Shown here piece by piece: positions 49,437 through 52,732 of a DNA stretch of 64,000 nucleotides (positions are counted from its first letter, which is position 1; the number at the start of each line of letters is the position of its first letter). Below the pieces are notes generated by a model. That model was not told the origin of the DNA and made no database searches. It was given only the letters and a program-made list of their open reading frames with translations. This DNA is from Mucilaginibacter ginkgonis. GTDB taxonomy: Bacteria > Bacteroidota > Bacteroidia > Sphingobacteriales > Sphingobacteriaceae. The stretch covers positions 930,001 to 994,000 of the forward strand of contig NZ_CP066775.1 in assembly GCF_009754905.2 (NCBI RefSeq), written 5' to 3'. A program made the translations under genes and the position numbers.

Positions 49437-50729
49437 TTATTTGCGGGTGCCGGTAGTATTGATCTCTCTAAAACCTATCAACTCTTCCCAGCGGGCGCCG
49501 GGCGGACGATAGTAAACTAAAAACTGGTAGTTATTCTCTGTTTCGAAATGGTCGCCTTCAAAGAACGAATAGTTAGGCTTGCCGCTTGCATCAACTAAAA
49601 CGTATTGATAATCATAAACACCTTGTTTCAACAACGTATTGAAATAATACCTCCCTCGTTGTGCGTCAAAATCCATCTTGCCGGCGTCATTCACTTGCCA
49701 GTCGTTGAATTTACCCACTATGTATACAGATTGGTGGTTAGTAGCGCCCGATGCTGCCAGATTGAAATATGTCTGCGCGTAATCCCCGTCGTAACGCGGA
49801 TCGCGGCCTTCTTGGTTTATTATTCTGAAGCCTCCATTCAGATCATACCCAAACACATAAGAAATTTGGTCACGGTTCTGATCTGTAAGAAGAAGTACAG
49901 TATTTGCAGTATCCCTGAAAATACGCTGCACCCGCTCTGAATTTAATCGTAGCGAACGGGTGTCGATGTGACGAAATTCATTCCCGCCGGGAAAATCATT
50001 GATAGCAACATCATTATACATCAACGATAGGCCATTGATAAAAGTAGGGCGACTGTTTATTGTCGCGGTCTCTGGGCGGCCGTTTTGCATGATCACCGTG
50101 CGAATGTCGCTATAAGGGTTTTGCACACTAACACCGTTTACATCTATCTGGAAGTTGATCTTTTGATGTGTGGTTCTATTCGCAACGTTTGGTGATACCA
50201 TCAGTTGCGGAAACAAGTTGGCATGCGGATTTATCACATAAAACCGCCGGGTAATTACCGGTTTGTTCTGATCGCCGTCCTCATAAACTTTTAACAGATA
50301 ATTGCCTGATATCTTAGGCGCTATAGTGCCGTTTGGCAGTGCCAGCTGATAATGCACGTATTTTTGGATGGTGCTTATAGAGTTGCGGTAATCGAGGATG
50401 CGATCCTCAGTGAAACTTTGCAGGTACTCTACGGGTGAAATGCGGGAGGGATTCCACTCCGCGTCGCAATGCTCAATGGTATAAGTATAATTACGGATGT
50501 CGCGGCCAAGTTCATCAAAGTCAAATAGCAATTGTTCGCTACTGCCTAAAATGATAGCCGGGAATGACCCTTCCGACTTAGCGTTATAAAATTCTACTGT
50601 TTTGATAGATGGTTTATAAACCTTGTCTGTGTAGGTTATCTGAGCAGATGAAAAAAAGGGGAAAAACATTAAAATAAAAAAAAGCAAAAAAGCTATGTCA
50701 GGCTGAGCCTGTCGAAGCCTCTTCCGCAA
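49437..50729 (-). CDS. type IX secretion system plug protein (DUF5103 family)
   Basis: This about 430-residue exported protein of the DUF5103 family matches the T9SS plug, which closes the SprA translocon from the periplasm. Visible parts include [27 protein letters not shown] and the C-terminal [16 protein letters not shown] and [12 protein letters not shown]. The start is difficult: the hydrophobic core ([19 protein letters not shown]) needs a charged lead-in, and the only fitting one, [11 protein letters not shown] from TTG 50729, lies inside a REP repeat. The ATG at the MFF position (50669) gives a signal too short to work; a frame to 50855 is longer but overlaps the ABC-F gene. Confidence 0.8.
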
Positions 50730-50786
50730 GCCTCTAACGCCGCATATACTCTTGCGACGGGATTGCTTCGTGACTCGCAATGACAA
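50698..50786. repeat. REP repeat fused to the 5' end of the T9SS plug gene
   Basis: On the - strand it reads TGTCATTGCGAGTCACGAAG then CAATCCC, followed by AGGCTTCGACAGGCTCAGCC and TGACA. It joins one arm of the TGTCATTGCGAG family to a second sequence ending in TGACA. The gene's likely start codon and signal n-region fall inside it. Confidence 0.75.
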
Positions 50787-50812
50787 ATCGGATAAATAAG
50801 GGGAAAAGTTTA

Positions 50813-52732
50813 TCACGCTTCTAATTCCAATATCTGACCAGCTAAAGTTTCCCACTGATCCTGCGTTTGTTTAAGCTTGTTTTTTCGAGAGCTATAATTA
50901 CCGTTTACTTCGGCAAGTTTTGCTTTATCGTTATAAACTGCTGGTTCGGCCAGTTTATTTTCGAGGTCTTTAACTTCATTTTCCAGCGTTGTGATCTCGT
51001 CTTCCATGCGTTGCAAATCGTTATTCAGCTTTTTAATTTGTTTAGACTTGTCTTCGCTTTGTCCCTTAGATGGGGCAGGGTCTTTCTTTTCCTCTTTTTT
51101 TGGCTGAGGTGCAGGAAGGGCAGCCGAAGGCTGGCTTTTACGTTTAGATAGCCACTCCTCATACTCCTGGTACGTGCCCGGGTATTCTTTTATCTGCTGA
51201 TCTTCAATAAACCAGATCTTATTCGCTATGTTGTCCAGGAAATACCTGTCGTGCGATACAGCAATGAATGTACCCTCATACTGCTGCAACGCTTGTATCA
51301 ATATATTAACCGACTGCATATCCAAGTGATTGGTAGGCTCATCCAGTATCAAAAAGTTAGCATCGGCAGTTAATGCTTTGGCCAGCGCCACACGCGATTT
51401 TTCACCACCCGACAACACCTTTATCTTTTTAAATACATCGTCGCCGGTAAATAAAAAGCTTCCAAGAATAGAGCGCAACTCTGTTTCGGTATGTTTGGGC
51501 GCAAAGGCTTGTAACTCTTGCAGAATAGCATTTTCCAAATGAAGCGACTCTAACTGGTGCTGGGCGAAAAAGGTTTTGGTGACGTTATAACCTGTTTCGG
51601 CTTTGCCGGTAAAGTCATGGTCCGCACCTGCAACGATACGCAATAGAGTAGATTTACCACGACCGTTAGCGCCTATGAGCGCGATTTTGTCGCCTTTTTC
51701 AATAACAGCATCTGTATTGGTAAGAATAGGTAAGCCGGGATAGCTCTTGCTCAAATGCTCAATGTTGAAGACATGGCGGCCCGACTGTTTTGTGAACCTG
51801 AATTTGAAATTGACTGTAGGGTTGTAATCGTCCACATCGTCAATACGCTCCATTTTATCCAATTGCTTCAAGCGCGATTGTGCCATTTTAGCTTTGGTAC
51901 CCGCGCGGAAGCGTTCTATTAAACGCTCTTCCTGGCGAATCTTCGATTGTTGATTTTTATACTCAGCATGCTGTATCTCTTCACGCATGGCTTTCTCTTC
52001 CAGGTAAAAAGAGTAGTTGCCGGCGTAAACGGTAAGCTTACCACGCCGCGACTCAACTGTACGGTTTATCACCTTATCCAAGAACCACCTATCGTGCGAT
52101 ACGATGACGATAGCGCCTTCAAAGGCCTGCAAATAATTTTCCAGCCATTGTATAGATGGCAGGTCTAAGTGGTTGGTAGGCTCATCGAGTAATAAAATGT
52201 CGGGTGCCTGCAAAAGGATTTTGGCCAGCATTACACGCATCCGCCATCCGCCCGAAAATGTTGCGAGTTTACGGTGCGTATCTTCTTCGCTAAACCCCAG
52301 ACCTGCTAAAATCTCGTGGGCTTTATATTCGATATTGTAGCCGTCAAGCGCTTCAAACTCATGCTGCTTGTCGCTAAGCTTGTGTAAAAGGTCCTCGCTA
52401 TAATCGGTCTCCAGCTTTTTAAGCAGGTTTTCAATCTCTGTATGCAGCTGGTTTTGACGCTCAAATGCCTCCATCGCTACATGCAAAATTGACTTATCTG
52501 AAGCATAGGAAAGCAGGTCCTGATTTAAATAACCAATAGCGATGTCTTTCGACATGGAAACCGTACCAGACGTAGGAGAGTAGTCGCCAACAATGATCTT
52601 TAGCAATGTGGTTTTACCGGTACCATTGGCACCAATAAGGCCGATCTTTTCACCGGGTTTTATATGCCAGTTAGCTTCATCATACAGCGCGCGCGCACCA
52701 ATCTCAAACGTAAGGTTATTTATAGCGATCAT
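50813..52732 (-). CDS. ABC-F family ATPase (Uup/EttA-like)
   Basis: This 639-residue soluble protein has two ABC domains without membrane parts, the ABC-F architecture that acts on ribosomes. Walker A motifs are [15 protein letters not shown] and [15 protein letters not shown]; signatures are [13 protein letters not shown] and [13 protein letters not shown]; both DEPTNHLD boxes are present. The linker between domains (about 240-300) is rich in Arg and Lys. The last about 100 residues are a Lys/Glu coiled coil as in Uup. It probably resolves stalled ribosomes or branched DNA; an antibiotic-resistance role is less likely given the core context. Confidence 0.9.

Follow-up and report, generated by a model that had tools for sequence, protein, structure and literature searches.

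Where does the T9SS plug protein begin when most of the DNA in front of its hydrophobic core consists of interspersed repeats? The question is raised by a window of 64,000 nucleotides, positions 930001-994000 of a Mucilaginibacter genome (G000, the window's own genome; G denotes a genome and L a locus) of 3.70 Mb on a single contig. A preliminary description had suggested that a repeat insertion replaced the native start of the plug gene and was co-opted as part of its signal peptide.

The plug gene of the window and its repeats

The plug product matched NF052315 with 410.7 bits (cut-off 100) over positions 2-384 of the 385 of the profile, a whole-protein match at equivalog level, and PF17116 with 147.8 bits. 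Its open frame begins at GTG 50855 and runs through both repeat arms into the plug, and no ATG start of the MK type is found in it. According to a simple hydropathy and charge count the N-terminus is composed of a basic n-region, a hydrophobic core and a predicted cleavage site near AQ. The sequence and the list of open reading frames (ORFs) agree with the preliminary description as regards the frame, the core (15 residues followed by SSAQ) and the presence of TTG 50729. The features of the region are listed in Table 1.

Table 1. Features around the beginning of the plug gene (positions in the window).
Feature	Position	Strand	Remarks
T9SS plug gene	49437..50786	(-)	Given from TTG 50786, the start held most likely; ORF list, profile matches
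ABC-F ATPase gene	50813..52732	(-)	Upstream of and co-directional with plug; Pfam ABC_tran, ABC_tran_Xtn, ABC_tran_CTD
Family-A repeat arm	about 50754..50788	(-)	TGTCATTGCGAGTCACGAAGCAATCC... (also written TGTCATTGCGAG...); 30 of the 41 other own-genome matches listed
Family-B repeat arm	about 50686..50723	(-)	AGGCTTCGACAGGCTCAGCCTGACA at 50720-50696; frame reads RLRQAQPD; 11 of the 41 other own-genome matches listed
Hydrophobic core and predicted cleavage region, 19 residues	50640..50696	(-)	Sequence, hydropathy rule
Candidate start TTG, preferred	50784..50786	(-)	30-residue n-region; context in 39th percentile; position used in L017 and L133
Candidate start TTG of the preliminary description	50727..50729	(-)	11-residue n-region, net charge +3; context in 1st percentile
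Candidate start GTG	50814..50816	(-)	Overlaps ABC-F stop (GTGA); context in 6th percentile

The n-region had been attributed to a repeated 20-mer, AGGCTTCGACAGGCTCAGCC, found exactly at 50701-50720 on the minus strand. This 20-mer does belong to a genuine multi-copy repeat; a second arm, of family A (TTGTCATTGCGAGTCACGAAGCAATCC at 50786-50760, minus strand), had been overlooked. The family-B arm reads CTTCGACAGGCTCAGCCTGACA, and most of 50696-50786, beyond the 20-mer alone, is repeat-like. A search of the 161 bases from 50640 to 50800 against their own genome, with 40 of the 86 first-look candidates scored, gave at least 42 matches (itself and 41 others) at E<=0.001, and among the matches listed the 41 others sorted into two blocks, 30 at family A and 11 at family B. 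The repeats are multi-copy and mostly intergenic, in the manner of REP or MITE elements, since 31 of the 36 other distinct clusters of G000 lie outside ORFs and five overlap one. Family B gave 44 matches in G034 and family A gave 19 in G080 and 130 in G156, with none in the reversed controls; the 19 matches of G080 correspond to 13 places in 6.34 Mb, one of which falls within the plug signal peptide of this genome. A third family, C, has the pattern CCCCTCT...AGAGGGG and occurs at the plug loci L038, L175 and L188; the copy-number counts cover families A and B.

No inverted arm pair was found in the window element, which folds less strongly than those of relatives, with -37.6 kcal/mol. Since its arms belong to different families, A and then B, it is a mixed element that lacks the clean palindrome seen in its relatives; one further A/B mixed cluster exists in G000 (L262). 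A link between the repeats and a transposase was rejected, because the 1.5-kb flanks of the two Y1_Tnp-like genes of G000 (L041 and L042, one above the Pfam cut-off) contained none of the A, B or C arms that would be expected there of RAYT-mobilised elements.

The in-frame starts available are GTG 50855 (inside the ABC-F gene), GTG 50816, TTG 50786, TTG 50780, TTG 50729, TTG 50687 and ATG 50669. TTG 50729 is thus not the only one that adds a charged n-region, as had been claimed, given that the first four share its frame. Scored with an upstream matrix made from 124 ordinary starts of the genus (106 plug, 18 PorV), the contexts of these seven codons fall, in the same order, in the 2nd, 6th, 39th, 15th, 1st, 6th and 77th percentiles, the last being the highest of all. 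The choice of TTG 50729 is therefore doubtful when compared with TTG 50786. The latter reads TTG TCA TTG CGA, and ATG TCA TTG CGA opens the plug genes of L017 and L133 at the same position of the A repeat. Moreover, L128 and L135 begin with MSFR at this position, in a version of the arm with one mismatch. We give about an even chance to translation in the window starting at TTG 50786, the tip of the family-A arm. Otherwise GTG 50816 or TTG 50729 would be the start, and with any of the three the n-region would be encoded by the repeat. The ABC-F gene stops with TGA 50815-50813, and GTG 50816 would allow translational coupling with it. What counts against a start in the repeat is that TTG 50687 and ATG 50669 lie 3' of it and that ATG 50669 has the best context; this ATG leaves 10 residues, which is too short for a signal peptide.

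Starts at TTG are common in Mucilaginibacter. By a simple rule, only TTG or GTG was found before the core in 27 of 30 SprA loci, ATG in one and neither in two. PorV has an ATG in 29 of 30 loci, and the PorV of G000 itself only a TTG.

Repeats at the plug gene across the genus

A plug match was obtained in 144 of 149 genomes of the genus. Leaving out the fragmentary matches of G110 and G112 there were 142 loci with upstream sequence, and with L233 (G124) also excluded 141 were analysed, including those of M. polytrichastri (L125), M. galii (L015), M. aquatilis (L135) and M. pankratovii (L188). L034 was mis-anchored and is counted as having no repeat. The plug match of G014 (L040), a genome 71% complete, contains one in-frame TAA.

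In 25 of the 141 loci the stretch from the start used to the cleavage site contains an arm of family A, B or C; another 25 have one only upstream, and the other 91 have none. The median n-region of the three groups has 31, 3 and 3 residues, respectively. Eighteen of the 25 carry family A, four family B (L011, L015, L179, L195) and three family C, and L179 has an A arm inside as well as the B arm. Examples of such N-termini are MKPVIARYEAIPNYTRQPCKATLHIGDCFVPRNDARFLR-LVYLLLF (L217), MIHVIARHEAISKQ...RDCFVPRNDAR-VIGTIAIILILL (L161) and MLRQAQHD-SLSLACYFCVILFF (L015). Three further loci (L186, L209, L214) have long n-regions that appear by eye to be repeat-derived and stand outside the count of 25. 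Some of the repeat n-regions, such as those of L015 and L134, have a net charge of zero by the start chosen, which counts against a repeat-encoded n-region. In 20 additional plug loci, mostly from other genera of the family, no arm was found within 300 nt with patterns made for Mucilaginibacter.

The arms are concentrated near the signal peptide. In 80 named loci, the 500 nt that precede the cleavage site, divided into 100-nt bins, held arms in 3, 2, 5, 14 and 8 loci; outside this stretch arms were counted once further upstream, once in the mature gene, six times in the spacer on the 3' side and 10 times beyond. No arm was found in the signal peptide or the 500 nt upstream in 30 SprA loci, nor in 30 PorV loci; 25 of 141 plugs against 0 of 60 controls gives a Fisher p of 1e-4, computed over species that are not independent. 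SprA (loci L335-L364) seems to start at TTG genus-wide. The T9SS sortase profile NF033707, intended for a PorU control, had no match above its cut-off in the 41 genomes of the genus searched.

Throughout 20 stretches of 20 kb and the window there were 356 ORFs and 24 repeat clusters. Of these clusters, 21 lie between ORFs and the other three inside one: the first in the plug, the second in an over-extended ORF (L237) and the third, a lone B arm, at codon 1328. The 643-residue ORF of L237 was discarded as a case of a repeat inside a gene, since by our reading a plausible start, MSKTTDELFKN..., follows the repeat.

The plug is not the sole gene affected, as there are two other candidates for a repeat-supplied start, and such starts seem to be rare elsewhere. 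In G000 an acyltransferase with Pfam support (PF01757; 255-1538, minus strand, of L271, G000:C1:2163028-2166055) has a frame that starts in a family-A repeat, its N-terminus reading MSLRGTKQSRHPD... from the repeat (ATG TCA TTG CGA GGA), with no other ATG for about 100 codons. In L257, also of G000, an ATG stands immediately 3' of the repeat; the remaining ORF-overlapping clusters of this genome involve short ORFs of 91-152 residues without support. G080 and G156 together gave 29 distinct clusters in 30 loci, eight of which overlap an ORF, the G080 plug included. One G156 locus (L278, 1495-2613, plus strand) encodes a GH43 protein whose N-terminus resembles a signal peptide and for which the nearest ATG upstream falls within a family-A 3' arm, an alternative start being the TTG (TTG AAA AAA) just 3' of the repeat.

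The recurrence of the trait was followed on a tree built from 140 mature plug sequences, 24 of them of the repeat-inside class, one mature sequence being too short to include. The trait requires 14 changes, and supported branches force at least 11 of these. Its distribution is also clustered (14 changes against a shuffled mean of 22.5), which indicates that single gains were partly inherited. Four sister comparisons (L161 with L023/L159, L143 with L156, L150 with L160, and L125 with L123/L124/L012) align closely in the 3' end of the ABC-F gene and in the mature plug, and in all of them the in-frame repeat occupies the place of the short MK, MR or MN start of the relative. Between L206/L217/L225 and L200 the spacers cannot be aligned, and only the ends of the hydrophobic regions do. 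Regarding the window, the comparison with repeat-free relatives proposed in the preliminary description favours its suggestion of a replaced and co-opted start: the plug of G015, 64% identical, has a short native start, MKRVQ, and other relatives have independent or differently built repeat-encoded n-regions. That repeats would have replaced the beginning of the plug gene several times within Mucilaginibacter is well supported by these alignments.

Probable origin of the plug n-region in repeats

We consider it probable that the repeats took over the start of the plug gene and are read in frame as its n-region. Short palindromic interspersed repeats would insert again and again between the ABC-F and plug genes, in a spacer that would be permissive, and in several lineages, that of the window among them, a repeat would take over the plug start, the short native n-region being lost or displaced. 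Once the native start is gone, the repeat could persist only with an open frame through it and a start codon at hand, and when read in frame it would give a longer, mostly basic n-region before the hydrophobic core. The n-region of a Sec signal peptide needs little beyond positive charge and an open frame, and this is the reason why it might tolerate repeats. From the sequences we infer translation through the repeat, export by Sec and cleavage near AQ.

The frame and the conservation of these segments bear on this reading. In the signal-peptide class the plug frame is open through 17 of 21 full elements (the other four being chained to a second element), against one of 19 in the upstream class, a comparison which is partly circular because the former class is defined by an open path; elsewhere full A elements are open in 59 of 198 frames. 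Conservation of the n-region, taken as its nucleotide difference against the difference at 4-fold sites of the mature gene, is mixed across ten pairs. The two differences are 0/13%, 5/23%, 5/27%, 5/48% and 8/55% in five pairs and 30/61%, 33/48% and 21/48% in three, and in two the n-region differs more than the mature gene (41% vs 36%, 43% vs 29%).

A different origin of the same segments is that the signal-peptide part, repeat included, was swapped between species by short recombination, many cases being transfers instead of separate insertions. This possibility, which we regard as unlikely, is suggested mainly by L143 and L150, which are 89% identical over the spacer and signal peptide and only 77% and 76% in the flanks. 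In the mature gene the repeat-free sister species share 91% identity with them, and the nearest other copies of the middle of the element in G111 and G141 reach only 70-73% identity along its length, although G111 is only 61% complete. The pattern could reflect constraint or exchange, and strong constraint with two losses would fit it equally well. Moreover, the repeat n-regions across the genus are of different families, lengths and frames, so that one travelling cassette does not explain them. Either by insertion or by exchange, the n-region is, on the evidence of its sequence, encoded by the repeat.

Around the start, stronger structure is predicted for the repeat class, with a median of -46.1 kcal/mol against -21.6 kcal/mol. 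In L217 (-69.0 kcal/mol), L161 (-61.7), L133 (-59.5) and L017 (-44.1) the predicted hairpins overlap or closely follow the plug start codon. A strong hairpin at this place should hinder initiation and so counts against a start in the repeat. The same structure makes a throttling effect plausible, and it is conceivable, if unlikely, that the repeat has been domesticated as a signal-peptide module open to exchange, in which the start-codon hairpin and the long basic n-region would throttle or time the synthesis and export of the plug, selection keeping the module or swapping it between species. If this were true, a secretion machine would repeatedly have drawn a coding and regulatory part from mobile repeats.

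Start-proximal hairpins would be easier to tolerate if the repeat were an untranslated leader, with translation beginning in or just after its end (at TTG 50687, ATG 50669 or a non-standard codon, for example ATA 50696) and almost no n-region. Such an arrangement has some points in its favour, as the context of ATG 50669 is A+T-rich and in the 77th percentile of the 124 starts, and 25 of the 141 loci do have the repeat only upstream of an ordinary start. Nevertheless, the product of ATG 50669 would be too short, that of TTG 50687 would have no charged n-region and starts from a 6th-percentile context, and in L017, L128, L135 and L161 there is no ATG, GTG or TTG between the 5' arm of the repeat and the core. 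The partly circular excess of open plug frames given above (17/21 against 1/19 upstream and 59/198 elsewhere) argues against it too, and we judge a leader to be somewhat less likely still than exchange.

Decay of the plug towards a pseudogene under relaxed selection is very improbable: the long end branch of the window plug (0.35 against a median of 0.067) would allow for relaxed constraint, though the gene is intact, with 410.7 bits to its equivalog, the mature sequences are full-length across the class in the tree rows used, and the G000 plug is not clearly more divergent than that of G015 (54-66% identity to five relatives against 57-66%), with SprA at 71-79% against 75-79% and PorV at 64-70% against 63-66%.

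Comparison with known systems

The reading of the repeats as the start of the plug, which we prefer, has some consequences. Conversion of repeats to coding sequence has mostly been described as scattered cases, and here it would affect one conserved gene again and again within one genus. This recurrence, together with the close repeat-free relatives, makes the birth of N-terminal coding sequence and the tolerance of the n-region testable. In these species automatic annotation may have miscalled the start of the plug gene, and the question is posed of how ribosomes initiate beside predicted hairpins of -44 to -69 kcal/mol, as in four relatives. In the literature searched, with few subscription journals among it, no account of these repeats or of repeat-built signal peptides was found, and the papers containing one of four repeat strings concern other subjects as far as their extracts go. 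What appears to be new is the recurrence at the signal peptide of one gene, the participation of three repeat families and the strong predicted start-codon hairpins.

REP elements, including those associated with tyrosine transposases (RAYT), are small, palindromic, present in high copy number and mostly intergenic. The Mucilaginibacter repeats of families A and B resemble them in size, copy number and mostly intergenic position, and those of the window's relatives also in their predicted palindromic hairpins; they differ from REPs with RAYT in that no transposase link was found for the two Y1_Tnp-like genes of G000.

Autotransporters with long signal peptides (ESPR) carry an unusually long N-terminal extension, according to the extract of the source consulted (PMC2805444). 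As in these, a long extension precedes an ordinary hydrophobic core in the plug; the likeness is one of length, and the plug extension, unlike the ESPR as described there, is repeat-derived, variable between species and missing in most relatives.

The closest known kind seems to be the Rickettsia palindromic elements (RPEs), described in the portion of the source consulted as short, palindromic and inserted in frame inside protein genes, many of them unrelated (PMC10969869). The likeness lies in a palindromic element that is in frame and would be read as part of a protein, the frame being open through both arms of the window and through 17 of the 21 full elements of the signal-peptide class. 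Compared by description, in Mucilaginibacter it is the signal-peptide n-region of one gene that is hit repeatedly across the genus, with no fewer than three repeat families involved, and, unlike in the RPEs as characterised in that text, the repeat would often supply the start region itself.
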